Of a stretch of 64,000 bases of DNA, positions 38,848 to 59,912 are shown piece after piece. The position numbers were made by a program, and so were the translations under genes. This DNA comes from a virus: positions 1 to 64,000 of IMG/VR virus record IMGVR_UViG_3300025383_000011. One strand, 5' to 3'. The notes under the pieces are model-generated. The model was not told the DNA's origin, did no database searches, and saw only the letters and a program-made list of their open reading frames with translations. Each line of letters begins with the position of its first letter. The first letter of the stretch is position 1.

Positions 38848-38945
38848 TTATAGATAAATGGATCTCGTTTACGTAGTTCTTTTAATTTTTTACGATAACG
38901 TAATTCTAAAGTGATTTTATTGTAAAGATTTCGTAACCATTGCAT
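38844..38945 (-). CDS. 33-residue basic microprotein
   Basis: A frame from ATG at 38945 encodes M-Q-W-L-R-N-L-Y-N-K-I, then a K/R/L-rich helix, ending K-R-D-P-F-I-Y-K. It begins inside the end of the upstream gene and ends in a 4-nt ATGA overlap with the carbamoyltransferase start. I recall small proteins ending in DPFIYK from cyanophage-type genomes. The coupling overlap supports a real gene. Confidence 0.55.
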   Translation of the reverse strand: MQWLRNLYNKITLELRYRKKLKELRKRDPFIYK

Positions 38946-39732
38946 TGAATTGATCTTTCATTATGTGTGCTGCCGCTGTGTGTGCTGCTTCTAGTGGATG
39001 GGTAGTACCTATTGGGTATTTATTCTCCAAAGCCCACTGATAAAAACCTCTTGGGTCCGTTGTTTGTGTTGCTTCTGTTCCGGCTGGAAACCAAAACCAA
39101 TTGGCTTGATCCCGGTGTATTTGTTCAGTTAGACTATGTATGCTAGCATCTGCTGTTTGTATTGTATGATTGTACCATATGCAATTATCGGCACAGGTAA
39201 ACAAATAAGGTATACTGTTGGTTTTTAAATAATTTTGTAAGTATGTAATTTCTTTGAGCGTGGTATAAATTTCCCAGTACTCGCTGTCGCCCACGTTCTT
39301 ATAAAAGGATTTGGCAAAGTCGGCTATACCGTTTTCCTTGGCTTTGGTTATATTTTTAATTTGCTCATACAAAATATTGCTATTTTGATTTACAAATTCT
39401 TTTTCTATAGTTGCAGGATCATCCCGTACAGTCCACGGAGTAATAGTATACCAAGGACTGCCGCGTTGATTGGTATGATAATTAAAGCGAAATTCATAGC
39501 GACCAGGAAAGGTCCACGATACTATCACAGCAGGACGTTCAGGCCATATGGCTTCGCATTCAGCAATAACACGATGTGCTATGCCATCATTGCCTAAACC
39601 GGGCCAGGCCACGCATTGATACTGGTGTTCTTGAGACAACAAAGCCGCAAAGGTGCTTTGACTGTGTCTGCCGTTACAGTCTGCCAACTCGCTGCCGTAT
39701 ACGAAACTGTCACCTCCGGCTACTATAATCAT
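38917..39732 (-). CDS. SGNH-like protein
   Basis: 271 residues. Block I A-G-G-D-S-F-V-Y-G near residue 5-13, G-L-G-N-D-G for the Asn block, S-W-T-F-P-G-R, and T-H-P-L-E-A-A-H for the final His. It lies with sugar-modifying genes; an acetyl-ester role is possible. Confidence 0.65.
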   Translation of the reverse strand: MIIVAGGDSFVYGSELADCNGRHSQSTFAALLSQEHQYQCVAWPGLGNDGIAHRVIAECEAIWPERPAVIVSWTFPGRYEFRFNYHTNQRGSPWYTITPWTVRDDPATIEKEFVNQNSNILYEQIKNITKAKENGIADFAKSFYKNVGDSEYWEIYTTLKEITYLQNYLKTNSIPYLFTCADNCIWYNHTIQTADASIHSLTEQIHRDQANWFWFPAGTEATQTTDPRGFYQWALENKYPIGTTHPLEAAHTAAAHIMKDQFNAMVTKSLQ

Positions 39733-40789
39733 ATCCAGGCTTCATCATATCTATTTGCATTTGTTTGTAAGTGGAATCGCTCCAGCAGTAGTCGTACTGT
39801 TGTACAACTCCGTCAATTTCTATACGCTGTATGTCCAAGTGGCTGCCCAAGATGTCCCATATGGTCTTGTAGTCTGTGGTACCAAAACTGGCCTGTAGAT
39901 CAATTTGACCCAGCGGCAGGTAACCCAGACTCAACGTGGTATCGCTGGGATCTCTATTGTTTTTGATCAACCAAGATTCAAATTCTGTTTGTTCTTTGTC
40001 GTGCCAAGGGTGCCCGCCATTGCGAACAACATCATTGCCCCACTCAACATCAAACTCGCCCGAGTAATATCTCAGTTCTGTAATAGCTTCGCATACTGTG
40101 TCAGTGAGTTCAGGTGCGTGTTCATCACGGAATACTTCGTACAAAGTCTTACCTATCTGTGTCCAGTGCATATATACACCGCCCAACACACGATCATATC
40201 CGTTGATGCGAAAGCCCTCACGGTGCTCGGGTTTTAAATCATATCGACGTGCATTTATAAATGTGGTAATTTGACTGGGACGTACCCAATAAGGATCTGT
40301 GGCCAATTTGCGTTGACTCAAGATCAAGTTTTCCATTTCGTGACAGATGTTGTTCAGTTGACGAATAGCATACTTGGTATCATAGTCAGCACGTTTGTAC
40401 CACTCACTTAGTCCCCATACCGTACCTTGCAAGCGTTCAAAATGATTGTGTAACCGGTTCATCATATCGTGATTGATGCCGTTTTCGGCATAATCAAATC
40501 CAACTACATTTTTGGGGGTAAACAATTCCCAGATAAAGTATTCACTGTTAAAGAAAAGATTAATGGTTCGTGTGTGTTGATTGAGTTCGTTACACAGATA
40601 TTCCAGTGTGCGAGCAGTCTTGGGAAAACCCATAAAACAAAAGTTTTTTTCTAGTAGGTTACCAGACTCCAGTAGATCTCGCAGAGCCACTTGCCAATCT
40701 TGGGCCAGCGAGGTGTCGTTGGGAACGATAGTATAGTCTACTTGATCGTTCCGGTCTAAAGGGTTACGCAATACTACTTTAATTGTCAA
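39710..40789 (-). CDS. conserved phage protein, unknown function
   Basis: 359 residues. A mixed fold with N-terminal strands (V-V-L-R-N-P-L), Y-F-I-W-E-L-F and many aromatic residues (G-V-Y-M-H-W-T-Q-I-G). C-terminal Y-L-P-L-G-Q-I-D. No catalytic motif stands out. It overlaps its neighbours by 11 and 23 nt in the radical SAM operon. Confidence 0.65.
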   Translation of the reverse strand: MTIKVVLRNPLDRNDQVDYTIVPNDTSLAQDWQVALRDLLESGNLLEKNFCFMGFPKTARTLEYLCNELNQHTRTINLFFNSEYFIWELFTPKNVVGFDYAENGINHDMMNRLHNHFERLQGTVWGLSEWYKRADYDTKYAIRQLNNICHEMENLILSQRKLATDPYWVRPSQITTFINARRYDLKPEHREGFRINGYDRVLGGVYMHWTQIGKTLYEVFRDEHAPELTDTVCEAITELRYYSGEFDVEWGNDVVRNGGHPWHDKEQTEFESWLIKNNRDPSDTTLSLGYLPLGQIDLQASFGTTDYKTIWDILGSHLDIQRIEIDGVVQQYDYCWSDSTYKQMQIDMMKPGYDYSSRR

Positions 40790-42089
40790 TTGAATCCCAC
40801 CATTCGAGTGCTTGAGGTCTTAAGGACATGATGTCTCTAAAAGTATACTGGTCTTTTCGGATTTTTTCAAGTTCTAATATACGAGCTTTGCCCTTTCTGA
40901 GACCGGCTTCGTATTCTGCGGGCCACTGTTCAGCAAATGTGGGTCTAGTTTTTAGCTGGACAAGTATATCCCGTAACGGGCCGGTTAGAGGTTTACCCTC
41001 AGGAGTGCCATTCAGGATTTCGTCTACCCAGGGTTCCAAAATGGATCTGGGCAGGGCCAACGGCGACATAACAATGTCCGGGCTAAAACTAAAAACTACT
41101 TTGGCTAGTACGTCTACACCTAGTGTTTCTGCGAGCGATTGTATCGCTTGTACTTCAAAGAGTCCTGGTGTAGTAAGAGTGAAGTCCAAACGGATCTGGC
41201 GGCGGTGACTGTGGTACGCAAGTCCTTCGCGGATGTTCTCAAGCCACTGATCAAAATCAAGACCTGATCTAATATACTCGCCAATTCGGCCCGTGCCATC
41301 GATGCTTGCACAGATTTGCCAGTCACGTAACCCAGATAGTATATCCCTAAACAAATTGATACCGCGATAATTGATGCGACTAAGATTTGTGTTATACCTA
41401 GCGTAAACATTTTTTCCATCTCCAAGTTCTATGATCCGTTGCATATACTTCCAGTGTTGCTCGTACATCAACGGTTCACCTCCCACCCAATACACCTCTT
41501 CCACTCGGTGTTCCTCAACAGCAGTAGCAAACTCTTGCTCTACCTGGGTGTCTTGAAACTTTACTATTTGTTCTTTGACCTCAGGGCGCATCCAATGTGT
41601 ATTAGGATTGTCCCAATCAATCATATTATGTTGTCGTTGCTCACTCTCCCAAGCACTCGACAGCATATCGCCGCACATACGGCATTTAAAATTACACAGG
41701 TTACTAAACCTATAATCCCACGAGACTGGCTTCATTGTCGTGTAGCCCGTATCATCAGTATGTTCCAGGGCCTGTAAATACTTATGACCAAATAAACTGT
41801 TAAAATACGAGCGGTAAACGTCGGTATTCAGCAACTTGCTGTTGCACACATCACATTCGGGCAAGGTTTCTCCGGCCATCATACGACGGCGCACACTTTT
41901 CATATGTTCACTGTTCCAATGCTCATCCAATGAAATAGGTATGTACTTGCCGGTACCCGATGTAGTATCAATGTACTGTTGAAAATTCTGCGCAGGCTCT
42001 CTTGACGCACAACACATTCTACGCTCAGTTTGCGGGCTGAGATAGGTATGAGTCCAAGGTGCCATACAAAGTGTTGCTGGTTTATCCAT
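40779..42089 (-). CDS. radical SAM protein with N-terminal SPASM/twitch domain, 1
   Basis: 436 residues. Cysteines C8, C26, C27, C79 and C82 (C-M-A-P-W-T-H, M-C-C, C-D-V-C) form a SPASM/twitch-like auxiliary Fe-S domain placed before, not after, the core. The core CX3CX2C is C132/C136/C139 (S-N-L-C-N-F-K-C-R-M-C). W-V-G-G-E-P binds SAM. The enzyme should make a 5'-deoxyadenosyl radical, but the target is unknown. Last of six such genes. Confidence 0.85.
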   Translation of the reverse strand: MDKPATLCMAPWTHTYLSPQTERRMCCASREPAQNFQQYIDTTSGTGKYIPISLDEHWNSEHMKSVRRRMMAGETLPECDVCNSKLLNTDVYRSYFNSLFGHKYLQALEHTDDTGYTTMKPVSWDYRFSNLCNFKCRMCGDMLSSAWESEQRQHNMIDWDNPNTHWMRPEVKEQIVKFQDTQVEQEFATAVEEHRVEEVYWVGGEPLMYEQHWKYMQRIIELGDGKNVYARYNTNLSRINYRGINLFRDILSGLRDWQICASIDGTGRIGEYIRSGLDFDQWLENIREGLAYHSHRRQIRLDFTLTTPGLFEVQAIQSLAETLGVDVLAKVVFSFSPDIVMSPLALPRSILEPWVDEILNGTPEGKPLTGPLRDILVQLKTRPTFAEQWPAEYEAGLRKGKARILELEKIRKDQYTFRDIMSLRPQALEWWDSIDN

Positions 42090-43047
42090 TTATAAATTCC
42101 ATTAAGGGTTCGACTATTGACTGGTAGAACGATACATCAACAGCAGATCTATTGTGAAACAAACTGGAATTGTGCGCCATTTTGTCTCGAGTTTCTTGAC
42201 TGTATCCTTGCAGCTGATAATTTTTTATCTGTTCGTACACTAGATCCAATCGGTTGAGTTTGAAATCGTATGACTCGTCGAATAAATTACTGTATGTTTC
42301 AAACCCCGAGCGTTGTAAAAAATCCAATGTACCAACTCCGCCCAGCATCACAAACGGTTGTTGTAATGCTAGAGGTTTCATTGTTTTTTCTGTGACAAAT
42401 ATTTCGTCTGTGTTCATTTGTGTTTCTACCACTATGTTGATTTCTGTACGATTGTACCACGCAGGATTTATGTAACGATCCCATCTATCCCAATACTCTT
42501 TGTGTCCGGGGCTGTCGTGTTCAATATCGCCATCGATACGCACTCCACGATCAACATAACTGTATAGTCCTTGCTCCAAGATTGGAGTAAACTTGTTGTA
42601 TATATCGTCTCTAAAAGGTCTAGCAAAATTCATCATCAGCAAAAACTTTTTGTCTGGTGTGTAGGTACGTTCTACTGTGTAGTTGCTCAATCGATTTTCG
42701 TGATACCAAAAATACAACGGAACTTCCAAGGTATTTGGTGGAGTATTTGTGCTCTCTGATCCAACCACGTGCAACACCGTTGTTTCAGTATGCGACGAAC
42801 TGCTTTGTTTTTCCAACAGCGACTCAAACACCAATCGATAACCATCCCCGACCAATTGATCAACAGTTGTTTTATTTTTGTGATATTGATAATGATTGCA
42901 CACAAACAAGGTTGATTGTTTGTCGTATGCACGGTGCGGATCATAGAATTCAAAATCAAAAGCCTGACCAATTATACTACGATACTCTAATAAGGTTATC
43001 TGTGTATAGTTGTTGTGATCCCAAAAACCAACCAGTTTAATCTTCAT
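42082..43047 (-). CDS. glycosyltransferase-like protein (GT10-like C-terminus)
   Basis: 321 residues. The C-terminal T-E-K-T-M-K-P-L-A-L-Q-Q-P-F-V, G-F-E-T-Y-S-N-L-F-D-E-S-Y-D block matches the proteins at 34.5, 51.9 and 53.0 kb. The N-terminal part is a different Rossmann-like half (V-G-F-W-D-H-N-N-Y). It lies between radical SAM genes 1 and 2, so the two classes are co-expressed. Confidence 0.65.
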   Translation of the reverse strand: MKIKLVGFWDHNNYTQITLLEYRSIIGQAFDFEFYDPHRAYDKQSTLFVCNHYQYHKNKTTVDQLVGDGYRLVFESLLEKQSSSSHTETTVLHVVGSESTNTPPNTLEVPLYFWYHENRLSNYTVERTYTPDKKFLLMMNFARPFRDDIYNKFTPILEQGLYSYVDRGVRIDGDIEHDSPGHKEYWDRWDRYINPAWYNRTEINIVVETQMNTDEIFVTEKTMKPLALQQPFVMLGGVGTLDFLQRSGFETYSNLFDESYDFKLNRLDLVYEQIKNYQLQGYSQETRDKMAHNSSLFHNRSAVDVSFYQSIVEPLMEFING

Positions 43048-44254
43048 ATCCCATTGCTCTGGCTATTTCAGGGTGCGTGTCCAAGAAGTTTTGTTTGCGG
43101 TGTGCATCGGTACGTTGCATCTTAAACAAAAATTCCGATCCGTCGCTGCCTGAACCTAATTCAATGAAATTGATTATGTTGTTGATTTCTCGTTGATAAT
43201 GACTGTTTTTCCAAAATGTAGTTTTTAATTTGTTTAACACCAGTTCATTGGCAGCCGGAGTCATACGTTGTATGCTCATATGATCAGGACTGTGCATCAT
43301 ATTGAAATAAATGTCTCCAAACCCTTTGGTGTCGGCCCAGTCTAGTAATTCATCCAAGTAATAGACATTTTGAATATTGACAGTAAAACACAACTGTGTG
43401 GTGATATTGGGTGTGTCAACACGTTTGGCAAAGTGTACATCGTCGATAATTTTATTTGCCAAATCCCACTTGGCCCCGTAGCGTTCATATTCAAAACGAT
43501 CGCCTACGTTGTCAATACTGAACGCAATATCTACACGACCAAATTGATTCCAAATCTGTGTGTTTTCACTCAGTTCCTGCGTGGCATTGGTGTTGTAGTG
43601 TATGTCAATGTTCTTGCTGTAACCCAAGGCAGCCGCATATCTCAGTAGATCAAAATGCTCTTGTATCATCCAGGGTTCACCACCGGTAAATTCAAAATAC
43701 TTGATGTTGGGCAATAGTTCACGTAGGTTGTCCCAGAAGATTGTTGTTTTGCGTGGCCAGGCACCGGCCTTTAGCCAGGTGTAGGCAATGTGACTCTTCT
43801 TATCAAAGTCTTTGGGCATATATGCTAATTCTTCTTCGGCCCACTTGCTGCTTGACCACGATCCACAAATACGACATTTGAGATTGCAGATGTTACCCAA
43901 CTTCAAATCCACAAACCATAGCTGGTCAGGATTATCGTTCGCCCAGTCAACCTTGTCGTACAAGTGCTTGAGTCTAACTTGACTATGGATGCGTTTGCTG
44001 TCGCGGCCGGCAGCTTCTTCATCCCAACAACGACTACAGGTTGCTGGCTTTTCCCCGGCACGAAACTGTCTACGTAGATTTTGCATATACTCGCTGTGAT
44101 ATGCAGTTTCCAAGTTGGTTTCATTTAGATCGTATTTTTTACCTGTGGCATCAACTATTTCCTCGTGTGCCATACAGCAAGGACGTGTAGTGCCCATCGG
44201 GCTGGTCTCAATGGAGATCCAAGGTAACATACAAATTGTTTTAGGTAACGTCAT
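43037..44254 (-). CDS. radical SAM protein with N-terminal SPASM/twitch domain, 2
   Basis: 405 residues. Auxiliary Cys C8, C26/C27 (R-P-C-C), C73/C76; core C123/C127/C130 (N-I-C-N-L-K-C-R-I-C). F-T-G-G-E-P-W supplies the SAM-binding turn. D-L-K-L-G-N-I-C-N-L-K precedes the core, as in its closest paralogue, gene 3. It ends with D-A-H-R-K-Q-N-F-L-D-T-H-P-E, shared with the others. Confidence 0.85.
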   Translation of the reverse strand: MTLPKTICMLPWISIETSPMGTTRPCCMAHEEIVDATGKKYDLNETNLETAYHSEYMQNLRRQFRAGEKPATCSRCWDEEAAGRDSKRIHSQVRLKHLYDKVDWANDNPDQLWFVDLKLGNICNLKCRICGSWSSSKWAEEELAYMPKDFDKKSHIAYTWLKAGAWPRKTTIFWDNLRELLPNIKYFEFTGGEPWMIQEHFDLLRYAAALGYSKNIDIHYNTNATQELSENTQIWNQFGRVDIAFSIDNVGDRFEYERYGAKWDLANKIIDDVHFAKRVDTPNITTQLCFTVNIQNVYYLDELLDWADTKGFGDIYFNMMHSPDHMSIQRMTPAANELVLNKLKTTFWKNSHYQREINNIINFIELGSGSDGSEFLFKMQRTDAHRKQNFLDTHPEIARAMGYED

Positions 44255-45446
44255 ACCGCATTGCTTTTGCTATTTCTGGATGTGTGTCTGCAAAATTTTC
44301 TCCACGGATACGATCCAACTGTTTCATTTCCTCACGGAATCTGACTCCGTCTTTGCTTTCAGCATTGTTGATAAAATCAATTATTTGATCAATTTCGCGA
44401 CGGTGGCGGTCAATAAATTTGCCTGAGTTTAATTTTTCAATTACCAATTGTTTTGCTTCCGGCGGCATTGTACCAATACTCAAATAGGCCGCTTCGTGAA
44501 CTAATCCAAAGTTTTCGTGATCAAAGTCTTGTTCGGCTATCCACGCACACAATTCCTCAAGATAATAAACATTTTGTATACTCACAGTAGGATTAACCTG
44601 TAGCTCTATATGTGGAAGACGAGCTTTCATTGCACGAAATCTTTGTATGTTTGCATTGACTTCCGACCACTTGGCTCCTGAACGTTCTAGTTCAAAACGT
44701 TTGCCCAATCCGTCAATGCTAAATGCTATTTCAACACGTTTGAAGTTTTTCCATAATTCTTCAGCACCTTCGGGGAATACAGTTCCATTGGTATTGTAAA
44801 ATAAATGTTGATAACGACTGGAACCTGTGTCTACGCTGTACTGCAACAGGTCAAAGTGTTCTTGAATCATAAAAGGCTCACCGCCAGTGAAATCTAAAAA
44901 TTTAATCTTGGGTATCAAAGTTCGTACTTCTTCCCAAAATGTTGTACTGGTACGTGGCCATTCGCCTTCTACTAGCCAGGTCTTGCTTTGATGAGTTCGT
45001 CTTTCTTTGTATGGAACCTGCATTAGACTCTCCTGTGCCCACTTGCTGCTGATCATAGGACCACATATACGACATTTGAGATTGCAGATATTGCCCAATT
45101 TCAAATCCAAGTATAAAAAATGTTTAGGCACGACAGTATTAAAATTTACCAAAGGCAACAGCATATTCATTTTCTGCAAATGATTAACACGTTTGCTGAT
45201 TTTGCCCACAGCTTCCTCATTCCAGCAACGACGACACGCTCGAGGTTTGCCACCATCAATGAATTCTTGTCGCAAATCTTTCATATAATTGCTGTGAAAG
45301 ATTTCCATTATACTGTCGGTAGCAAGATTGTATGGAGTGCCATCATCACGTTTGATTACGTCCTCGCTAATGCAACAAGGGCGTACTGTGCCTACTGTGT
45401 TGGCAGCCAGACTGGTCCAAGGCAACATACACTTGTGATCAGCCAC
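44241..45446 (-). CDS. radical SAM protein with N-terminal SPASM/twitch domain, 3
   Basis: 401 residues, the closest match to gene 2. Auxiliary Cys C6, C24/C25, C71/C74; core C121/C125/C128. F-T-G-G-E-P-F, then F-Y-N-T-N-G. Its end, F-A-D-T-H-P-E-I-A-K-A-M, nearly equals that of gene 2, suggesting a recent duplication. Confidence 0.85.
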   Translation of the reverse strand: MADHKCMLPWTSLAANTVGTVRPCCISEDVIKRDDGTPYNLATDSIMEIFHSNYMKDLRQEFIDGGKPRACRRCWNEEAVGKISKRVNHLQKMNMLLPLVNFNTVVPKHFLYLDLKLGNICNLKCRICGPMISSKWAQESLMQVPYKERRTHQSKTWLVEGEWPRTSTTFWEEVRTLIPKIKFLDFTGGEPFMIQEHFDLLQYSVDTGSSRYQHLFYNTNGTVFPEGAEELWKNFKRVEIAFSIDGLGKRFELERSGAKWSEVNANIQRFRAMKARLPHIELQVNPTVSIQNVYYLEELCAWIAEQDFDHENFGLVHEAAYLSIGTMPPEAKQLVIEKLNSGKFIDRHRREIDQIIDFINNAESKDGVRFREEMKQLDRIRGENFADTHPEIAKAMRYDVT

Positions 45447-46764
45447 CGTTTAATTCCTTAAATTCAGGAAATAAATCCCAGAAACATTCATTTCGTACTG
45501 CGTCTAGTTTGGCAGTTTCTTCTACAAACCGTGGCCAATGTTTGGTACCATCAGTGCCGCGCATTAGACTCAGTAAACTTTGATATCCTGTGGTAGCACG
45601 ACGCAAACTGTCTTGTGGATCTAACCACTCAATATGACGTTCATATGCCGGATAGATGACACGCTGTTTAAACTCCTCCGGGAAGATATCAATTCTATAC
45701 CATTCGGGACTTTGGCAAATGTTGATATTCCAATCCTTGGCTTGAATCAATCCCAACCGAGTCCATTCCTGATGGAAGTCCAGCACGTGTAGTACATTCA
45801 TTGAGCTAACAGTTGAGCTTACATAAAAATCCACGTGTGGCACTTCTGCCATCATACGTTCGCGGTTTTCTACTGTTTGACGCCAGTCTGCACCTTTGCG
45901 TATAAGTTCTGCTTGAGGACCCATACCATCTAGACTAGCACCTACTGAAACATTCTTAAAGTGTTTCCAATATTCAAACACGTGCTTGTCTTTGTAACGC
46001 ATTTCACTGAAGTTTGTATTGTATTGAATACGTACATCAGTTTTGCCGGCATCAATTAGCTTTTCTAATAAAGCATAATGCTCTTTCATAATTAACGGCT
46101 CGCCGCCAGCAAAGTAAACCTGTTCTAGATACGGAACGTGCTCAAGCATTTGCTCTTGCATTGCATCCTCGTCTCCTGCAGCGTACTCCACTCGTGACAT
46201 ATCACGACCAAGCACATCTGGAACGCGGTTATATAACTTAACGTGATCGTTGTACCAGTTGCTACTGAAAATAGGACCGCAGGAACGACAGCGGAAATTG
46301 CAGAGATTACTAAAACGCACATCCCAATACCTAATCTTGAATTCAGGATGTGTGCCATCATCTTGTGTCGCATTTGTTTCCTTAATTAAATGTCCGTAGT
46401 TACGATTACTATCGTTACGCATACTAAACGCACCGTGCCGCTCTTGCTCGTAGCACTTGGTACATTCTTTACTGGGTTGATCTGCAAGCATATTGACACG
46501 CAACTGCCGGTACCGGTCTTGGTTCCACACTTCTCGCATTGTGTGTTGACGTAAGTCGCCCACTGGATGCCAATAGTCAGCCAAACAGCAAGGATACACA
46601 CGACCGTCTGGGAAGGCGTGCATATGAGTCCAAGGCAACATACAGAATGTTTCGCTCTGAGTCAAGCGATGCCACTCTTGTTCTGTCAATTCTGTGCGTT
46701 CAATGAAATAAGGCGCACGAGCATTGTAGTCGTAACCCTTGTTGTAAAAATCTTGTTTGCTCAT
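45439..46764 (-). CDS. radical SAM protein with N-terminal SPASM/twitch domain, 4
   Basis: 441 residues with the most SPASM-like front: C41-M-L-P-W-T-H, P-D-G-R-V-Y-P-C59-C60, P-V-G-D-L, M-R-E-V-W-N, C101-T-K-C104. Core C155/C159/C162 (N-L-C-N-F-R-C-R-S-C) and F-A-G-G-E-P-L. A 40-residue N-terminal extension precedes the domain (Y-N-K-G-Y-D-Y-N-A-R-A-P-Y). Confidence 0.85.
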   Translation of the reverse strand: MSKQDFYNKGYDYNARAPYFIERTELTEQEWHRLTQSETFCMLPWTHMHAFPDGRVYPCCLADYWHPVGDLRQHTMREVWNQDRYRQLRVNMLADQPSKECTKCYEQERHGAFSMRNDSNRNYGHLIKETNATQDDGTHPEFKIRYWDVRFSNLCNFRCRSCGPIFSSNWYNDHVKLYNRVPDVLGRDMSRVEYAAGDEDAMQEQMLEHVPYLEQVYFAGGEPLIMKEHYALLEKLIDAGKTDVRIQYNTNFSEMRYKDKHVFEYWKHFKNVSVGASLDGMGPQAELIRKGADWRQTVENRERMMAEVPHVDFYVSSTVSSMNVLHVLDFHQEWTRLGLIQAKDWNINICQSPEWYRIDIFPEEFKQRVIYPAYERHIEWLDPQDSLRRATTGYQSLLSLMRGTDGTKHWPRFVEETAKLDAVRNECFWDLFPEFKELNGG

Positions 46765-48110
46765 AACGTGTTGTACCAGCCTGCCAAGGCAGGAAATGTT
46801 GCTGTGAAGTTTTTACCGCGACGCTGGTCATACTGTGTATAAAACTTCTTAAAGTCTTGTTGTAGTACTGATTGTTCTGCAGCATCTGCGTGTGGTGTTT
46901 TGACCACATCCAAATAGTCAATCAAGCGTTGCAGTTGATTGCGTTCATACTCGTGCAAGAATTCGTCATTGCTGTTTGTGTCTAACCAATCTTGCAAGCG
47001 AATTTTGTAGTGTGTTCGTAATACATCTGGAAGAACCAGTGGACTTTGAAAACTTGGAAATCTTAAAATATTTAGCGAGAAACTAGGGAAGTTCTTTCCG
47101 TACTCACGTTTCCAATTCATACAGCACTCTAAGAAACTGTCTAGTGTGTCTAAACACAAGGCATTGATAGTACACATCACGTGGAAGCCACGTAGTTTAC
47201 CTGAGTCCATAATCTTTTCACAGTTGTTGGCCCAGTCGTCCCAGACAAGTCCATCGCGTATGTATTCGGCTTGTAGACCGATGCTTTCATTACTGGTATA
47301 TAAGTCAACAGTGACTCCATCAATGGCTGCTAGCAAACGATTTACGTCTACATCAGTACCTAGGTTACTGTTAATAGCAAGACGTGTAGAACTCTTGCCT
47401 TTGTTAGTTTTAAACCATTCAATTAGTTTCCAGGTCTCTGGCGACATAAGTGGCTCACCGCCAGTGATACGTAATTCTTTTAATGTTCTGTGTAGATCTG
47501 TTTCCCACCATTTGTGAAATGCTTCTACATACGGGTTAACTTCGCCGAAGCGATAAAGTTGACTGCTATCGTGAGGGTGAGTAAAGTGGTTGCGGCCGTC
47601 GCTAACCAATTGGGTGTATGGCCCGTGTTGCTTAAGGTCACGTACCCAGCTACTACTAAAAGCAGGGTTGCAGTAGCTACAAGCAAATTGACAGGTACGG
47701 TCAAACGCGATTTCAAGTGTTTGTAAATCCACATCTTCTTCTGCAGGAGTGTTGTAAGCAAGATCCAAATCCTTATCATCATATATAACAGTTTTGTACA
47801 CACGGTCACTGATGTTGTCGCGACCAATGTCTTCAATCTTCCAACAGTATTCGCAACCGACAGGACGTTCGCCCCGTTGCATTTGAGCACGTTCTGATTT
47901 CTTTTTAGCGGTATTATGTAATGCCTTGGGATTGGCACGTACTTCGTCAACACTAACCTGATGTGGCAACGGGTGATGGCAACTAGTAGTTTGCCCTGAC
48001 CCTAACCATATAGTAGCATTGTACCATTTGGCTCCGCAGAAGCTTTCCGACTTGATGTCGATCACCCGGCGTTTGTATTCTAAATCGGTTTCATTGTTAA
48101 TTCTGGGCAT
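46761..48110 (-). CDS. radical SAM protein with N-terminal Cys/His domain, 5
   Basis: 449 residues. Here the front pair is T-S-C44-H-H-P rather than P-C-C, with C25, C86 and C89 kept. Core C140/C144/C147 (R-T-C-Q-F-A-C-S-Y-C) and I-T-G-G-E-P-L. A-L-H-N-T and S-D-R-V-Y are shared with gene 6 only. So genes 5 and 6 form a subfamily whose auxiliary cluster may use His or have an open site. Confidence 0.85.
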   Translation of the reverse strand: MPRINNETDLEYKRRVIDIKSESFCGAKWYNATIWLGSGQTTSCHHPLPHQVSVDEVRANPKALHNTAKKKSERAQMQRGERPVGCEYCWKIEDIGRDNISDRVYKTVIYDDKDLDLAYNTPAEEDVDLQTLEIAFDRTCQFACSYCNPAFSSSWVRDLKQHGPYTQLVSDGRNHFTHPHDSSQLYRFGEVNPYVEAFHKWWETDLHRTLKELRITGGEPLMSPETWKLIEWFKTNKGKSSTRLAINSNLGTDVDVNRLLAAIDGVTVDLYTSNESIGLQAEYIRDGLVWDDWANNCEKIMDSGKLRGFHVMCTINALCLDTLDSFLECCMNWKREYGKNFPSFSLNILRFPSFQSPLVLPDVLRTHYKIRLQDWLDTNSNDEFLHEYERNQLQRLIDYLDVVKTPHADAAEQSVLQQDFKKFYTQYDQRRGKNFTATFPALAGWYNTL

Positions 48111-49482
48111 AGTATCGGCATTCGTTCCAAAATTCCCGCATCTCTGGGAAAGTTTCTAAAAAGTCGGTGTTGCGTCGTTGATCGTGTTCGTGGAAAAATC
48201 TATAAAAATCTGCACGTTGTAGTTTAACATATCCTGGATCCAAATTGCGACCTTCCTTCATCCAATCAATATCGCGGCGCATACGTTGTACTTCGTAGTC
48301 CTTGAATCCGTGAAATGGATCTTCGGCAGTTTCCAAATTCAGTTCCATCCAGTCAGCCACACGTTCCAATACCCCCACGTAAACTTCAGGCAAGATTTGT
48401 AAACTTTGCCAACGCGGTTGACGTAGTAACGGAGTATCAAACCAAACACGTTGATATGTGGTACTGTGCGTTCTGCGTAGACTCAAAATATAATCTAGCT
48501 GTCGTTGTAAACCCAATACGCTTAGGTTATTCATTGTGATAATAAATGTAAGACTGTTGCGATAAGGAACTTCTGTCAGGTAACGTTCAACATAGCTGAC
48601 CAGACGATTCATATTCAAACCGTTGCGTATGTATTCTGCGTGAGCTGGTATACCTGAGTCTAAACTCACGTACTGCATAAAGTGTTCAATTTGAGTTGAA
48701 CACAAGCGTTTTACATAATCTAGATAGCGTTCAAACAATGCTGGTTCTACGCTGAAGTTTGATGTCACATTCAGGTGCAATTCAGGATTAGGCAAGGCCA
48801 ACACATAGTCAAATACCTTGAATGTGTTACGATCCATCAGGGGTTCGCCACCGGTCATACGGAAATGTTTCAGTTGCGGATAAAGTGTAGGCCACCAGGC
48901 CCAAAATGCATCAACATAAGGATTATCTTGGGAATGAGGAATAGGCCTGTTGCGACCAACAAAATGGCTAGCATCGTTATGAACAGTACTGGTTGGGTAT
49001 CCGCCAAACCTATCAACTTCTTGCTGCCAGCTACTACTAAACTGGGGACTACAATAACTGCATTTGAGATTACACGCATGATTAAAGTTAACTTCGACGT
49101 ACGACGGAACAACGTCGTCTTCATTTCCGGCACTGGATCTAATAGGTTCATAATCTTCTGCTGCCCAAGGCTCTCCTGATCTATAATGTCTATCGCTTAG
49201 GTTACCCAAGTCTTCTTGTGTCCAGCAATAGCTACATTCTTGTGGACGTTCGTCTTTGAGCATAATAACACGTTGCTTTTTCTTATGCTCGGTATTGTGT
49301 AATGCACCCGGATTGTCTTTTAATACTGCGGGATCAATTTGATGCAAGGGCGGATGATAGCAACTGTTGTTGAGTCCTGTAGGCAAGTGTAGACTCACCT
49401 GTTTCCATTTGGCCAAACAGAGTGCTGGTCCTAATTTTTCTTTCATCTGCTCAGCGGCAGACATAAAGTCGCTTTTACTCAA
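48097..49482 (-). CDS. radical SAM protein with N-terminal Cys/His domain, 6
   Basis: 461 residues, sister of gene 5. Front residues C22, N-S-C41-Y-H-P, C83/C86 (C-S-Y-C-W); core C137/C141/C144 (H-A-C-N-L-K-C-S-Y-C). M-T-G-G-E-P-L and the ending D-Q-R-R-N-T-D-F-L-E-T-F-P-E. First of the radical SAM series in transcription order after the SGNH genes; it overlaps gene 5 by 14 nt. Confidence 0.85.
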   Translation of the reverse strand: MSKSDFMSAAEQMKEKLGPALCLAKWKQVSLHLPTGLNNSCYHPPLHQIDPAVLKDNPGALHNTEHKKKQRVIMLKDERPQECSYCWTQEDLGNLSDRHYRSGEPWAAEDYEPIRSSAGNEDDVVPSYVEVNFNHACNLKCSYCSPQFSSSWQQEVDRFGGYPTSTVHNDASHFVGRNRPIPHSQDNPYVDAFWAWWPTLYPQLKHFRMTGGEPLMDRNTFKVFDYVLALPNPELHLNVTSNFSVEPALFERYLDYVKRLCSTQIEHFMQYVSLDSGIPAHAEYIRNGLNMNRLVSYVERYLTEVPYRNSLTFIITMNNLSVLGLQRQLDYILSLRRTHSTTYQRVWFDTPLLRQPRWQSLQILPEVYVGVLERVADWMELNLETAEDPFHGFKDYEVQRMRRDIDWMKEGRNLDPGYVKLQRADFYRFFHEHDQRRNTDFLETFPEMREFWNECRYYAQN

Positions 49483-50192: not shown

Positions 50193-51089
50193 TTAAAATC
50201 TCCTGGGTAATTGTGGGCCGGCCCATACACGGCCAAGTGGTTGTTTGGTCATTATCATTTCATTCACTGTATTGGTCCACTCTACTGTATTGCTGTTAAT
50301 TTCTATTTCAGGTGCTACCGTATTCAAGTACAACAAGTATTCGGCTGGCATTGGATGTGTGTTGGTTCTAAATAACAAACGCTTGCTGAATTGATGTTTT
50401 TCGTTGATCTCTACCTTGACACGATTGTCGACTCCACTAAAGTCCTGCTGAACAAATTGTTCCCACGTTGGCCAATTGGCGCCACGTAAAACTGTGTATT
50501 CTTGTTCAAGTCCTTTTATGTCTACATACCCCTTGCGACTGTACCAATCAAAATTGAATATTGCTTCGTATACGCTGGGTTTAACTGCAGCTAGTTCGTT
50601 GGCGTATAGTGTGGTTATTTCGTTGTCTATACTAAAAATTTTAAAAATATTATCATCAGGTACATTAAACGGCACTATACTAAAAAACTTGTACTCACAG
50701 CCAATTGAATCCAGTACAGCTTTAGCCGCAGACAAGTGTGCCATATCTCGAATTAGGTAGCCGGTGGGGTCGGCAAATTTTGCAACAAAATCTTCGCTGT
50801 AGGTTGTTTGATTATAGATACTACCCGGAGTAATCCATTGTTCACTTGCAACCCAACGGTCCTCGCGGCCTATGCTGCTCCACATAATCATCACAACATC
50901 ATCCCGGGTGATACGGTTACGTTTGTGGCATTCCATTAGGCTATAAAAAATAAAACTATTGCCTGCACCATCTTGTCCCCAATTGGAATACGATTTGTAC
51001 TGACGTCCCACTATGTCGGCCCAGGTTGGATAGTATATGCTGTTAGTAAAGCTACAGCCAAATGCAAAGAATCTTTGATCTTGTTTCAT
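50193..51089 (-). CDS. SGNH-like protein
   Basis: 298 residues. F-A-F-G-C-S-F-T-N-S (block I), G-A-G-N-S-F (block III), M-I-M-W-S-S-I-G-R-E-D-R, and N-T-H-P-M-P for the final His. Block I has G-C-S rather than G-D-S, a change seen in other members of this superfamily. It overlaps the radical SAM gene upstream by 4 nt. Confidence 0.65.
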   Translation of the reverse strand: MKQDQRFFAFGCSFTNSIYYPTWADIVGRQYKSYSNWGQDGAGNSFIFYSLMECHKRNRITRDDVVMIMWSSIGREDRWVASEQWITPGSIYNQTTYSEDFVAKFADPTGYLIRDMAHLSAAKAVLDSIGCEYKFFSIVPFNVPDDNIFKIFSIDNEITTLYANELAAVKPSVYEAIFNFDWYSRKGYVDIKGLEQEYTVLRGANWPTWEQFVQQDFSGVDNRVKVEINEKHQFSKRLLFRTNTHPMPAEYLLYLNTVAPEIEINSNTVEWTNTVNEMIMTKQPLGRVWAGPQLPRRF

Positions 51090-51925
51090 TTTGTAATTAC
51101 GTTATTGTAATGTAAAACTATGCTTTCGTCATCCTTGGCTGTGGGGCACATAGTACATACACGATGTGGTCGACCATAATTGTTGAGGAATGCTGCAATT
51201 GCCTCATCTGGGCTATCGGGTGTAATGTACTGCCCGCGATATGGTTTCCACGCCGGATCTGTTATGCCAAAACGATCTAGTGTTTGTTCTAACCCGCCCA
51301 ACGTACTACACTTGTACAACTTGCCCTGAAACATCAGCGGACATTTTTGTTGCATACAAATTTCAAACGATTCTGCTGGATTACTATTAAACGGCATCAT
51401 ATTTGGATAGTCGTTCTTATAGTACTTGATAAATGTCAGTGGGCGATTGACTTGAAATCGCAGGCCGTTTGTGGTCTTGTAACGATAGATGCCAAACTCG
51501 TACACAGGTTCCCATTTGTACATTGAAAATATTTTGCGTATCACTGCTTCTACACGCTCACTGTGTTGATGTGCAGTAATCTTAAAAACAAAGTTACCCA
51601 CTTCGTGTGCTGTTTCTAATACATCCAAGTGTCGGTCCAGCAGTTCACCGTTGGTACTAAAGCGTATGGGACTTGTAGGCAACAGTTCTCTTAGTCCACG
51701 TATCCATTGCTTGAGCTCGGGATTGATCAAGGGTTCGCCGCCCATGATGCCAAAGTCTTCGATATCCATACGTGGCAACCAAGATTCAATTTCTCTGCGA
51801 CCGTCCTCCCATTTGACATAACCTGTGTGCTTTAGGTCAGCGTAATTGCTGCACCCAAGACAACTTAGATTACAGAATTGTGTAACCATCATTTCTACAA
51901 ACGGCAAGTGGTGTTTAGTTGTCAT
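51086..51925 (-). CDS. radical SAM protein with C-terminal Cys tail, 7
   Basis: 279 residues, with the usual order: core first, C18/C22/C25 (F-C-N-L-S-C-L-G-C), M-G-G-E-P-L, then C-terminal cysteines (K-C-P-L, K-C-S-T-L, R-V-C-T-M-C-P) that could hold an auxiliary cluster. It therefore differs in architecture from the six N-terminal SPASM/twitch paralogues. It is coupled to SGNH and glycosyltransferase genes. Confidence 0.8.
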   Translation of the reverse strand: MTTKHHLPFVEMMVTQFCNLSCLGCSNYADLKHTGYVKWEDGRREIESWLPRMDIEDFGIMGGEPLINPELKQWIRGLRELLPTSPIRFSTNGELLDRHLDVLETAHEVGNFVFKITAHQHSERVEAVIRKIFSMYKWEPVYEFGIYRYKTTNGLRFQVNRPLTFIKYYKNDYPNMMPFNSNPAESFEICMQQKCPLMFQGKLYKCSTLGGLEQTLDRFGITDPAWKPYRGQYITPDSPDEAIAAFLNNYGRPHRVCTMCPTAKDDESIVLHYNNVITK

Positions 51926-52982: not shown

Positions 52983-53925
52983 AATTTATGGTTTTTGAAA
53001 ACTTTTTTTCGATTAGTAAATTGTAATTGTGATCTAGTATTGGTTGCATATCAGCGTACATTTGTGCCAGCTGATCTGTTGATCGAGACGATAGCGTATC
53101 AATAAGATCGAGAATCTTAGTATATTTATGTTTAATTCCGTAGCCATCATAGTCTTCATTCCAGAAGCTGCCAAATGTTCTAAAGCCCATTTGTCTTAGA
53201 TGTATCAGGTGGCATTTTGGTCCCATTGTTATAAACGGTTTTTTTAACAGCATTGGGCGAATGGTTTTTTCTGTGGGAAAAAAATTACGTCCATTCACAA
53301 AAGTTTCAGCCACTATGTCTATTAGAAAGTCTTGATAAAAATTGGCCAATTGTTCTGTGTGCTGTTGAGTTGACACCCCAATGGTGTAACCATCTTGATT
53401 TTCAATTTGTACAGGGAAATGATCGGCGGCCAATAAAAAGTTCCGGGCCGATGGCAAATCAATTTCAAACAATCGTTGCATTTCAAATAACCGGCGGTCA
53501 ACATCGTCGTGTGGATTAGAACGAAAATTAATTACAGATTTGTCTGCGTGGTTAATTTGCAAATGCCCAGCAATGCCCATACGATTCCACGTGGCTCGAT
53601 TATACAATGCACCAAATATTTTTCGACGATTCCAAACCTGATACGGTGTATAGTCTGTGTTGCCAGTGGTATAAAAGAATCTAAAAGCCGAATCGTGTAC
53701 ACGTATTTGATAAACCGGGTGATACTCAACCACGTTACCAGTCACAATAGTTACCGATTTGAATCTAAAACAATCCAGCAGTTCGTATATGCCCAGGGAT
53801 TCCAAACACCCACCTTCGTAGTTGGTATTTAGAATAATATTTTGATCTTGATTGCGAGCCAAAAAGGCAATCAGCTCCAGCCGATTGAATATATGGTTAT
53901 CGTTGATGTTTAAAAATAGCGTCAT
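52972..53925 (-). CDS. glycosyltransferase-like protein (GT10-like C-terminus)
   Basis: 317 residues. T-E-K-T-I-R-P-M-L-L-K-K-P-F-I, M-G-F-R-T-F-G-S-F-W-N-E-D-Y-D (Asn in place of the usual Asp), M-Q-P-I-L-D-H-N-Y-N-L. The last string also occurs in the plus-strand paralogue at 34.5 kb, which points to a close relationship. Confidence 0.65.
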   Translation of the reverse strand: MTLFLNINDNHIFNRLELIAFLARNQDQNIILNTNYEGGCLESLGIYELLDCFRFKSVTIVTGNVVEYHPVYQIRVHDSAFRFFYTTGNTDYTPYQVWNRRKIFGALYNRATWNRMGIAGHLQINHADKSVINFRSNPHDDVDRRLFEMQRLFEIDLPSARNFLLAADHFPVQIENQDGYTIGVSTQQHTEQLANFYQDFLIDIVAETFVNGRNFFPTEKTIRPMLLKKPFITMGPKCHLIHLRQMGFRTFGSFWNEDYDGYGIKHKYTKILDLIDTLSSRSTDQLAQMYADMQPILDHNYNLLIEKKFSKTINYVE

Positions 53926-54818
53926 TCCCTTGCCATTGGTCCTTTATTTTTAAAATTACTACGATAGTGATATTTAAAAAAACGACTTTCCTCTGCATCC
54001 ATATCCACAATAGGCAGACTCAAACGCATACGCAATTTGTCTCCGATGTCTCGGCACTCGTCGGCGCCGTGGTCTTTGTATTGCAGCCATAGCTCTGCCA
54101 AGGCATCAAAATTTTGTACTTGGCGATAATCCCAGTCTCCCAGCATTGTCATATATGTGCCAAGACGTGCACCATATATGGCCCAAAAGCCATTGTTGGC
54201 ATCTGCACCCACTGTTTGCCACACACACAAATGATCGTAGTTGCGATTGTTAACCTTGCTTTCAAACTCCAGTAGGCTTGGCTTGGCTCCACGATCTAAA
54301 CACATTTTAACACCTTCTCTAAATCCGGCACGCCAGGCTTGAAAAGGAGTGCCGTTGGGATAGGTGGTTGAATAGCAGTCGGCCATGGCCCAGTAGTTGG
54401 GATAAAAACAAAACTCCACATCGTTTTCTGCTGTGCCATCTGAGTTTTCGTGAGTACGCATTGCATAAACAAATTCTTTGGTCCAGCAACTCATACCACC
54501 GTTGCCGTACATCAATCCATTAACAGCGTTGCGAGCCCGCCAACGAAAAACGCAAGAGTCATTAGTATCATTGAGGGCCAATTGGAGATTGAAGAATTCA
54601 GGATCAGGAATGTTATCCCCATCGATAAGAACAAAACGGTCTGTGTCGCTAGCGTCTGCAGCCGCTTTGTGAGCGGCGTCACTGCCTTTAACTCCGTCCA
54701 CTCTTTTGGCCCACGGAACCATGTTTGAGATTTGTATCCAGAATTCTTCTTTTCTTGGTTCGTCATAGGTTAAAAATATGCAGTCTAAATCTGCAATGTC
54801 AATTATTTTTGTACTCAT
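53922..54818 (-). CDS. GT-A-like glycosyltransferase
   Basis: 298 residues. N-terminal I-F-L-T-Y-D-E-P and V-L-I-D-G-D-N near residue 75, a likely D-x-D metal and nucleotide-sugar site. W-A-K-R-V-D-G-V-K-G-S-D-A-A-H-K-A matches the C-terminal domain of the 606-residue protein at 32.7 kb. Cytoplasmic, no membrane segment. Confidence 0.7.
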   Translation of the reverse strand: MSTKIIDIADLDCIFLTYDEPRKEEFWIQISNMVPWAKRVDGVKGSDAAHKAAADASDTDRFVLIDGDNIPDPEFFNLQLALNDTNDSCVFRWRARNAVNGLMYGNGGMSCWTKEFVYAMRTHENSDGTAENDVEFCFYPNYWAMADCYSTTYPNGTPFQAWRAGFREGVKMCLDRGAKPSLLEFESKVNNRNYDHLCVWQTVGADANNGFWAIYGARLGTYMTMLGDWDYRQVQNFDALAELWLQYKDHGADECRDIGDKLRMRLSLPIVDMDAEESRFFKYHYRSNFKNKGPMARE

Positions 54819-55164
54819 AATATTCAGTTTCTTGTGCCGTTTCGTTTTCTTCCAATATTAGTCCTGCGTGATTTTTTACCACACAATGGCCTTTTGTGCC
54901 ACGTTTCAATAGCACTCGGTACTTGTTGTCGGGGTCTTTTTTTACCAGTTTGCCATCAACTACAGTATATAAAAAATATGTATTGTAGATAGATTTATCA
55001 ACCACTATGTAATTGCCAGACTCGGGGTGGTTTTGCATCGAGCAACCGACAATGTCTCCAAGCTCGTCATAATAAAATCTATGTTCAATCACCGGCACTG
55101 GTATTTCCTGTGCGGCCATTACTGCGTTAACTTCTTCCCAAAATTTAATTTCTTCTGGACTCAT
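54799..55164 (-). CDS. hypothetical phage protein
   Basis: 121 residues. Acidic N-terminal helix (S-P-E-E-I-K-F-W-E-E-V-N), then strands (Y-I-V-V-D-K-S-I-Y-N-T-Y-F-L-Y) and a basic segment (L-L-K-R-G-T-K-G-H). Overlaps both neighbours. Not recognised, though its position suggests a role with the sugar transferases. Confidence 0.6.
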   Translation of the reverse strand: MSPEEIKFWEEVNAVMAAQEIPVPVIEHRFYYDELGDIVGCSMQNHPESGNYIVVDKSIYNTYFLYTVVDGKLVKKDPDNKYRVLLKRGTKGHCVVKNHAGLILEENETAQETEYYEYKNN

Positions 55165-56005
55165 AGTATTCTATCAATTCTTTGGTTGCGTATTTTTTGT
55201 CATAGTAGTGAACTGGATGGTATTGATTTTGATTGTTAATACGTATCATATCACCATCACGTTCGGCTACCACTGTTTCTAACCAGCTACGTGCATCACT
55301 CCAATTTTGTATGCCTGACTTCATATGTACAAAATTGATAAAATCCATTGAAGGAATAGTACATAGCTCTTCGCCAATCAACAACGCTGTTACTGCATAA
55401 AGCACATCGGTGCTGGGAGTTTCCTCTCGACAATTTTTAAATAAGTCTCGAACTTCTGCCCAGTTACGGTATACTGTTTCTGCCAAGGCAAAAAAGTTAA
55501 ACGCTTCTTGACTGTATCTAAAATACATCAAACCATTGTACACATCCGGCAATTCGTTATCGTCAAAAAATTGTCGATATTTTCTTACATCACTGGGTTT
55601 TCCCTGGTAGTTTTTACATCCTGTGCTGAGCACTATATTGCGTAGTCTAAAAGCTGGCCACCAGTGATCTATACTGCCAGTAAACAACAAATCACTTTCT
55701 AGTTTGACAGTTTCTTTAAATGGCGATAGACGTAGTGCTTGATATTCATTAGCCAGTTTCCAATTGCTGGAAGGGTCATTATTATCGGTGGGCAAATCAA
55801 TAATATAATCAAAAGTATTACGATGAAGGTCATTTACTTTCTCCCGTGTGGCCGCATCAACAATTACCGCATACCGGTTATTTTTCTGCGTTGCCTTGAT
55901 GTTAAGAGCTTGCAGGTAAGCCAGCTCCAAATAATCTACTGATGCTGTGTTCTGTGCAAACGTAACAAATCCTTGAGGTTCTCTACTCACACATGGTCTC
56001 CACAA
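55145..56005 (-). CDS. GT-A/GT8-like glycosyltransferase
   Basis: 286 residues from ATG at 56005; GTG at 55990 is an alternative giving an 8-nt overlap with the upstream stop. F-V-T-F-A-Q-N-T at the start, K-L-E-S-D-L-L-F near residue 104 in place of a D-x-D motif (D to E-S-D), and Y-N-G-L-M-Y-F. The fold resembles GT8-type proteins. Paralogue of the next gene upstream. Confidence 0.6.
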   Translation of the reverse strand: MWRPCVSREPQGFVTFAQNTASVDYLELAYLQALNIKATQKNNRYAVIVDAATREKVNDLHRNTFDYIIDLPTDNNDPSSNWKLANEYQALRLSPFKETVKLESDLLFTGSIDHWWPAFRLRNIVLSTGCKNYQGKPSDVRKYRQFFDDNELPDVYNGLMYFRYSQEAFNFFALAETVYRNWAEVRDLFKNCREETPSTDVLYAVTALLIGEELCTIPSMDFINFVHMKSGIQNWSDARSWLETVVAERDGDMIRINNQNQYHPVHYYDKKYATKELIEYYESRRN

Positions 56006-57118: not shown

Positions 57119-57160
57119 ATAGAATAAAAGGTGTAGATAGTTATTATACTATGCTACACC
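57119..57160 (-). terminator. intrinsic terminator of the tail-fibre operon
   Basis: On the minus strand: GGTGTAG (57160-57154), an inner loop with ATAGT/ACTAT, CTACACC (57136-57130), followed by TTTTATTCT. A stem of at least 7 bp and a U tract, directly between the tail gene stop at 57183 and the next gene. Confidence 0.7.
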
Positions 57161-57171
57161 CTTAAGGTCAA
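57143..57171 (-). promoter_or_regulatory. sigma70-type promoter inside the terminator
   Basis: On the minus strand: TTGACC (57171-57166), 17-bp spacer, TATAAT (57148-57143). The -10 is in the terminator loop. The start site is expected near 57136, about 20 nt before the ATG. It probably starts the glycosyltransferase/radical SAM operon. Confidence 0.7.
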
Positions 57172-59904: not shown

Positions 59905-59912
59905 TATTTATG
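59905..59912 (-). promoter_or_regulatory. T4 late-promoter-like CATAAATA
   Basis: On the minus strand, one mismatch from TATAAATA, followed by TTAT, 18 nt before the fibre gene start at 59887. It lies in an A/T-rich inverted repeat. Candidate late promoter. Confidence 0.35.

Follow-up and report, generated by a model that had tools for sequence, protein, structure and literature searches.

The virus and the locus

The subject of this analysis is a group of radical S-adenosylmethionine (SAM) genes in the IMG/VR virus record IMGVR_UViG_3300025383_000011, of which positions 1 to 64,000 (referred to below as the window) were analysed; the record comprises 133,207 bases in total. Its major capsid protein is of the T4 type and displays 70% identity to those of Vibrio phage 2.275.O and Sinorhizobium phage Phosso and 68% to that of Pseudomonas phage PA5oct, i.e., the virus belongs with the jumbo T4-like myoviruses. 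Because of this relationship, and because contigs of relatives that harbor the same block of genes extend to 374 kb, the record probably covers only part of the genome of a jumbo phage.

In the window, six open reading frames (ORFs, denoted here by their left-hand coordinates: 40779, 43037, 44241, 45439, 46761 and 48097), all on the minus strand, encode radical SAM proteins in which a Cys-rich domain precedes the core. An earlier note, made from the letters of the DNA, described them as a battery of six paralogues in one phage, and all six are found where that note placed them. However, the description itself has to be replaced. Five of the enzymes constitute, together with an uncharacterised protein (39710) and a carbamoyltransferase (37372), a module that is conserved across hundreds of viral contigs, while the sixth, 44241, is a variable paralogue of 43037.

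Architecture of the N-twitch enzymes

The six ORFs score 290−398 bits against the NCBIfam model NF033640 (N_Twi_rSAM), for which the curated cut-off is 170. This is the family of N-terminal twitch proteins that the earlier note had named, correctly, as one to which no function is attached. The family has the same N-terminal Cys domain and core, but its definition includes neither an ordered five-member phage block nor 39710 or the carbamoyltransferase. Two more N-twitch copies are found in the record outside the window (88970−90079 and 94028−95299, with scores of 244 and 296 bits). The agreement with Pfam is partial: the SPASM model exceeds its cut-off at the N-terminus of 43037, 44241 and 45439, falls slightly below it in 40779 (20.9 vs 21.5) and is undetected in 46761 and 48097. 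The Radical_SAM model matches the central part of all six at E ≤0.001, in some cases under Pfam's own cut-off.

In an alignment of all eight paralogues, C41, C60, C101 and C104 in the N-terminal part and C155, C159 and C162 in the core are invariant (numbering of ORF 45439), as are the CX3CX2C and GGEP motifs, each of which occurs once in each of the six ORFs. The seven Cys are also kept inside each of the five ortholog groups defined below (26−28 distinct sequences each), with the exception of one sequence in one group; in 48097, they are residues 22, 41, 83, 86, 137, 141 and 144, invariant in 26 sequences. The motif set listed in the earlier note thus holds for these residues but not for its PCC element, which is replaced by SCHHP or SCYHP in 46761 and 48097. 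The proposed domain order stands: the Cys domain lies ahead of the core in all six ORFs, and the canonical SPASM/twitch order, with the auxiliary domain C-terminal to the core, was found in none of them. Judged from this pattern of residues, the four N-terminal Cys and the three core Cys would bind two [4Fe-4S] clusters.

An AlphaFold2 (AF2) model of 45439 (pLDDT, a per-residue confidence score, of 78) matches radical SAM folds, including those of SkfB (a sactipeptide enzyme), anSME, viperin and MoaA. Confidence is low around the core Cys, and near the clusters the model is too uncertain for Cys geometry. A profile search of the PDB with the radical SAM alignment gave no match. Identity with viperin was rejected (at most ~30 bits, where the NF038283 cut-off is 180 bits), as was identity with MoaA (at most 41 bits, for ORF 51086, where the TIGR02666 cut-off is 284 bits).

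A useful comparison is offered by BtrN, a twitch radical SAM enzyme with a four-Cys auxiliary cluster, which oxidises an aminocyclitol (PMC9012708). A single auxiliary cluster with four Cys ligands is likewise expected in the present enzymes, and the BtrN substrate is carbohydrate-like (PMC9012708). However, BtrN is a single enzyme, its sequence gives no significant match, and the auxiliary domain of canonical SPASM/twitch proteins is C-terminal, while here it is N-terminal.

A conserved block of five enzymes

Two samples of related loci were collected. A scan anchored on ORF 45439 identified 40 viral loci, of which one (L013) comes from practically the same virus. Several of the rest hardly differ among themselves, so that ~24−28 distinct sequences remain per gene. 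Because such a scan favours relatives of one enzyme, an independent scan was anchored on 39710. It yielded at least 538 confirmed viral stretches, and 67 loci with enough flank, out of the best 80 by identity, were counted, i.e., this is a sample of nearer relatives. The alignment of all eight N-twitch paralogues was too diverse to serve as a query for a scan of the collection.

In the first sample, each of 48097, 46761, 45439, 43037 and 40779 has its own ortholog in 36−40 of the 40 loci, with the order kept and with 57−87% identity (L013 apart); 39710 accompanies them in 38 loci and the carbamoyltransferase 37372 in 33. The second sample (n=67) gave 67 loci each for 45439 and 40779, 66 for 46761, 61 for 37372, 60 for 48097 and 55 for 43037, and in the loci that lack 43037 its place is mostly occupied by a 44241-like paralogue. 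ORF 44241 itself displays more than 50% identity to a gene of the 40-locus sample only in the near-identical L013. Twenty-four related records carry 5−14 N-twitch genes each.

In a phylogenetic tree (SH-aLRT, quick method), each of the five enzymes forms its own group, mostly with strong support, and 44241 groups with 43037, which rules out six equivalent recent duplicates. The five are therefore distinct enzymes that have been retained jointly, as would be expected of a pathway. The multi-step modification that the earlier note proposed gains support from this joint retention with two partner genes.

From these counts, it also becomes highly unlikely that we are dealing with a loose assemblage of radical SAM genes in auxiliary roles, gathered without a joint pathway in a plastic host-recognition region. 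In pelagimyophages, the host-recognition region is indeed hypervariable and gains radical SAM cassettes alongside tail fibres and GT8 enzymes (PMC7029224), and several genes are variable here as well. Yet the radical SAM genes of pelagimyophages are variable extras (PMC7029224), whereas the five considered here are a constant core, and the explanation is largely refuted by the five enzymes, 39710 and 37372 keeping their identity, order and co-occurrence in 33−40 of 40 and 55−67 of 67 loci.

Searches with 45439, 48097, 40779, 53922 and 39710 found the block in none of 50,697 deposited phage records, and Megablast against phage records gave zero matches. No account of the five-enzyme block, its association with 39710 and the carbamoyltransferase or its separate promoter was found in the open-access literature. 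The NF033640 family and phages with multiple radical SAM genes were already known.

Table 1. Genes and motifs of the radical SAM locus; fractions of 40 refer to loci of the 45439-anchored sample and fractions of 67 to those of the 39710-anchored sample
Feature	Positions	Strand	Support
Core enzyme 1, N-twitch radical SAM, 461 aa, TTG start	48097..49482	-	NF033640 290 bits; ortholog in 36/40, 67−100% identity
Core enzyme 2, N-twitch radical SAM, 449 aa	46761..48110	-	NF033640 296 bits; 40/40; 66/67
Core enzyme 3, N-twitch radical SAM, 441 aa, N-terminal KGYDYNAR	45439..46764	-	NF033640 398 bits; 67/67
Core enzyme 4, N-twitch radical SAM, 405 aa	43037..44254	-	NF033640 335 bits; 39/40; 55/67
Core enzyme 5, N-twitch radical SAM, 436 aa	40779..42089	-	NF033640 293 bits; 38/40; 67/67
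Core partner, uncharacterised phage protein, 359 aa, C-terminal PGYDYSSR	39710..40789	-	38/40; at least 538 viral stretches
Core partner, NodU/CmcH-type O-carbamoyltransferase, 491 aa	37372..38847	-	Pfam Carbam_trans_N and _C; 61/67
Variable N-twitch radical SAM, paralogue of 43037, 401 aa, GTG start	44241..45446	-	NF033640 351 bits
SGNH-like protein, 271 aa, frequent companion	38917..39732	-	GDSFVYG motif by eye; no Pfam match; family in 23/40
Variable cassette gene, glycosyltransferase-like by eye	42082..43047	-	TEKTMKP motif; 11/40 at ~31% identity; no Pfam match
Two SGNH-like cassette genes	49479-50192, 50193-51089	-	Variable; weak DUF6071 match for first; SGNH reading by motif
Variable radical SAM gene, core first, Cys-rich C-terminus	51086..51925	-	Pfam Radical_SAM 53.5 bits; of 40 loci, ortholog in L013 only
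Conserved protein, 298 aa, glycosyltransferase-like by eye	53922..54818	-	32/40, 61−100% identity; no Pfam match; motifs in common with 32670-34490
Conserved small protein, 121 aa	54799..55164	-	30/40; no family match
GT8-like glycosyltransferase	55145..56005	-	Weak profile match to glycogenin, E 9e-4
Putative glycosyltransferase, syntenic	55983..56828	-	32/40; DTDYLV motif by eye; no Pfam match
First operon gene, 106 aa	56797..57117	-	31/40, median 55% identity
Sigma-70-type promoter TTGACC-17-TATAAT, heads operon	57143..57171	-	Motif
Fibre-like protein (by eye), directly upstream of operon	57183..58136	-	30/40, median 36% identity; conserved ARYFFNAGG motif
Virion/tail-fibre-like protein, 577 aa, upstream of operon	58154..59887	-	PHROG virion structural and tail fibre matches
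T4-type late motif CATAAATA ahead of fibre gene 58154-59887	59905..59912	-	Motif present in 7/7 relatives
Tail (collar) fibre protein, 649 aa	59936..61885	-	PHROG tail fibre; Pfam Collar slightly under cut-off

The core partners

The AF2 model of 39710 (pLDDT 86) has no significant match in the PDB, and its structural kin in BFVD are uncharacterised phage proteins only. One of these, A0A6J5T9P3, is a 768-residue protein of an uncultured phage, about half of which corresponds to the 39710 fold, and the other half might reveal the role of the partner. A cyclophilin-like fold was considered and dropped (probability ≤0.21, root-mean-square deviation >8), and, although structure pointed to a homologue in Agrobacterium phage Atu_ph07, a profile search did not detect one there. 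Our guess would be a scaffold or substrate-binding protein. The motif GYDY[NS] is common to the C-terminus of 39710 and the N-terminus of the unrelated core enzyme 45439 and was seen nowhere else among the proteins examined; it is perhaps a common docking tag.

The second partner, 37372, displays both Carbam_trans domains and does not reach the NodU equivalog cut-off. Its family is present in 22 of 24 related records at 56−100% identity, in one of them (G014) as a copy ~100 kb from the block. In some relatives, the carbamoyltransferase is adjoined by the counterpart of 35967−36938 (-), whose product joins a P-loop (APS-kinase-like) kinase to a nucleotidyltransferase-like domain and could make an activated sugar or alditol.

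Variable cassettes and accessory genes

Other genes of the locus behave as exchangeable cassettes, namely the sixth N-twitch enzyme, additional radical SAM genes and several SGNH and glycosyltransferase-like genes; the variable ORFs are 44241, 42082, 49479, 50193, 51086, 51915 and 52972. For 51086, the reverse domain order described earlier is borne out as far as a core that comes first and extra C-terminal Cys are concerned, but the Pfam SPASM model is not reached at E 0.001. A cluster related to the SGNH-like 38917 occurs in 50 of 95 loci. Inside the block, these 95 loci contain 337 accessory ORFs, which fall into 84 clusters, the two largest being SGNH-like (53 and 51 ORFs, 50 loci each). 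The Pfam matches of 76 cluster representatives comprise radical SAM, SPASM, SGNH/GDSL and DUF6071 families, aminotransferases including DegT, a hexapeptide transferase, an epimerase, a B12-binding and an iron−sulfur (Fe-S) assembly family, and no peptidase, exporter or peptide-system family, such as those of ribosomally synthesised and post-translationally modified peptides (RiPPs). The Fe-S assembly protein, of the PaaD/MIP18 type (PF01883), is encoded inside the radical SAM block in ten loci (e.g., L043:5871-6173) and is likely a helper for loading so many clusters. Elsewhere in the window, Pfam identifies a DegT aminotransferase, two epimerases and a PIG-L deacetylase.

Operon, promoters and fibre genes

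The genes form an 18-gene operon, in which each gene between 38917 and 57117 overlaps or directly adjoins the next, and there is therefore no room for an intergenic precursor peptide gene; to the earlier note, too, no such gene was obvious. In relatives, a survey of ORFs of at least 100 amino acids revealed no nearby RiPP precursor; accessory ORFs of 100−149 amino acids are rare and are mostly Fe-S assembly genes.

The co-expression that the earlier note assumed fits this layout, but the operon has a sigma-70-type promoter of its own, whereas the fibre genes carry late-type motifs. In relatives, such a promoter (at least 10 of 12 matches) precedes the first operon gene in 18 of 23 cases and the late motif in none, while shuffled sequences gave ~5−7% for each. 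The sequence ATAAATA, which is the core of the T4 late promoter, is 17-fold enriched upstream of genes, mainly structural ones, in a de novo count; the exact T4 late promoter TATAAATA shows no enrichment. From these motifs, the enzymes are probably made before the fibres.

The fibre genes raise the question of whether the enzymes modify virion polypeptides, chiefly the upstream tail-fibre proteins, in a RiPP-like maturation that would need no precursor gene of its own and would yield crosslinks, epimers or oxidised side chains. In nearly all loci with sequence that far upstream, fibre-like genes in the same orientation directly precede the block, peptides are common substrates of SPASM/twitch enzymes, the 45439 model matches SkfB and anSME, and some of the Elusimicrobia relatives are fused to TPR repeats (see below). 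We nevertheless regard this explanation as unlikely: the neighbouring fibre-like protein drops to ~36% identity where the enzymes stay at 57−87%, the promoter class of the operon is unlike that of the fibres, the accessory genes include no peptidase, exporter or precursor family, and glycan-type genes dominate. An alignment of the fibre-like protein 57183−58136 displayed no obvious modification motif.

Relatives in phages and bacteria

Among cultured phages, N-twitch-like genes were detected only in Vibrio phages K566 and K567, and as one gene in Vibrio phage phi-pp2. In K566, four N-twitch radical SAM genes are found among two GT8 genes and one GT4-like gene, with LpxC and an annotated PagP nearby. 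The K566/K567 clusters thus resemble the locus in that N-twitch genes lie amid GT8/GT4-like genes, but they differ in that the identity is only ~22%, the genes are not orthologous to the five and the neighbours include no homologue of 39710 or of the carbamoyltransferase.

A large T4-like environmental virus, TARA_ERS488813_N000010, has been described with 12 radical SAM genes and PaaD (PMC5332604), and PaaD-type genes are also those found inside ten loci here. The comparison is one of descriptions only: the passage concerned covers Fe-S metabolism and there does not speak of an N-twitch architecture or a conserved block (PMC5332604).

In bacteria, a genome scan found homologues in metagenome-assembled genomes (MAGs) of Bdellovibrionota, Bacteroidota and Elusimicrobiota and in the strain Agaribacillus aureus BMA12. 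One Bdellovibrionales contig carries the 45439 and 48097 types, and neither in its flanks nor in those of an Oligoflexia unit (see below) was a homologue of 39710 or 37372 found. In a 2.9 Mb Elusimicrobia MAG (L062, L067; G030), NF033640 is matched 84 times, in some proteins as a fusion with TPR repeats. The phage block may be an extension of an older bacterial set.

Other genes of the window and the record

Outside the window, a second radical SAM island (record positions 87690−95753) contains the two further N-twitch genes and two genes with a SPASM-like part last (87690 and 93022). It sits among genes that resemble, by eye, the T4 gp47/gp46 recombination genes, and it ends in a small protein (record position 95310) with a sub-threshold CBM60 match (E 0.0056). 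The window has about seven SGNH-like genes: an adjacent pair at 8214−9706 (+) looks like a tandem duplication, and further ones were recognised by eye at 11872, 18153, 38917, 49479 and 50193. The gene at 4421−5281 (+) is QueE-like, with a SLQGEGRF start and CNFTCSGFGC, i.e., CX3CX4C and not CX3CX2C; it has no Pfam match and lies near a PTPS gene (3659−4162). A transporter of the Na+/H+ exchanger family is encoded at 6012−7181 (+) (Pfam Na_H_Exchanger, E 3e-22).

Substrate and proposed pathway

The reading that we prefer, at a probability of roughly 0.45, is that of a dedicated multi-step biosynthetic module of jumbo T4-like phages, in which five N-twitch enzymes act in series on a substrate that is most likely a carbohydrate. 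Where the earlier note left the choice between sugars and virion proteins, the gene company (GT8, SGNH, carbamoyltransferase and sugar-nucleotide enzymes, and in K566 glycosyltransferases and LpxC) favours a surface-glycan pathway. The preference for a carbohydrate is mainly due to the separate association of N-twitch enzymes with glycan genes in K566.

Several points weigh against it. An Oligoflexia contig (L055) harbors the 45439, 46761 (two copies) and 48097 types as a four-gene unit with no glycan genes beside it. Many characterised SPASM enzymes modify peptides, and the TPR repeats fused to the Elusimicrobia proteins usually bind proteins. Among the putative glycosyltransferases of the operon, only 55145 gave a database match, a weak one to glycogenin; the readings of 53922, 55983, 42082, 51915 and 52972 are motifs recognised by eye. 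The CBM60 match of the second island, finally, lies under its cut-off.

Products other than a surface glycan have to be considered in this context. The enzymes could serve the takeover of the host or competition among phages by making a small molecule (a cofactor, toxin, antiviral nucleotide or signalling compound). Enzymes with auxiliary clusters do make small molecules, e.g., butirosin and molybdopterin intermediates (PMC9012708), and both the early-type promoter and the stand-alone bacterial units would be compatible with such a product; however, no exporter, carrier protein or resistance gene was seen, and the synteny with glycosyltransferase-like genes and fibres is tight, which makes this quite improbable.

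Slightly less probable still is hypermodification of a nucleotide or of DNA, in which a base or nucleotide modified by the block would then be carbamoylated or glycosylated and would evade host nucleases. Carbamoyltransferases and glycosyltransferases occur in predicted base-modification systems, the promoter is of the early type, the structure matches include two nucleotide enzymes, viperin and MoaA, and the record encodes a thymidylate synthase, PTPS and the QueE-like protein. The thymidylate synthase, however, passes ordinary ThyA equivalog cut-offs, and the genes adjoin fibre and glycan-type genes, not DNA metabolism. Tet/JBP was not found in ten large records, in a search that had no positive control and therefore proves nothing.

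For the preferred carbohydrate pathway, a sequence of steps can be proposed. In each enzyme, SAM would be cleaved at the CX3CX2C cluster and the resulting radical would take a hydrogen from the substrate, as in established radical SAM chemistry. The four-Cys twitch cluster would be the likely electron acceptor in a BtrN-like two-electron oxidation (PMC9012708). The five enzymes, made early from the sigma-70-type promoter, would act in series with 39710 as a partner or scaffold, on a carbohydrate that may be free, nucleotide-linked or already part of a surface glycan. The operon glycosyltransferases would hand the substrate on, the exchangeable SGNH enzymes would trim or acylate it, and the carbamoyltransferase 37372 would perform the finishing step. 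Five oxidations combined with carbamoyl and glycosyl transfers would thus give a heavily altered, carbamoylated sugar.

As to its destination, the sugar may become part of a host envelope glycan, where it would block rival phages, or of a glycan on the phage's own fibres, and we lean slightly toward the former. A host-envelope destination fits with the early-type promoter, with LpxC and PagP as neighbours in K566 and with the view, expressed in the pelagimyophage study, that the host O-chain is altered by GT8 enzymes of phages (PMC7029224); a virion destination fits with the position of the block beside the fibre genes. The fuller proposal, in which the fixed five-enzyme radical pathway, its phage-specific partner and the carbamoyltransferase make a previously undescribed modified glycan on the host envelope or tail fibres and are related to a simpler bacterial set (Bdellovibrionota), is put forward more tentatively.

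Implications

That five distinct radical SAM enzymes have been kept together in hundreds of viral contigs implies a chemistry that is worth a large share of the coding capacity of the phage. The family NF033640, to which no function is attached, gains a fixed setting of seven co-conserved genes. The module hints at an unusual surface chemistry that phages carry out themselves, and one such module, rather than host metabolism, may account for some of the radical SAM and Fe-S gene signal reported from viromes.

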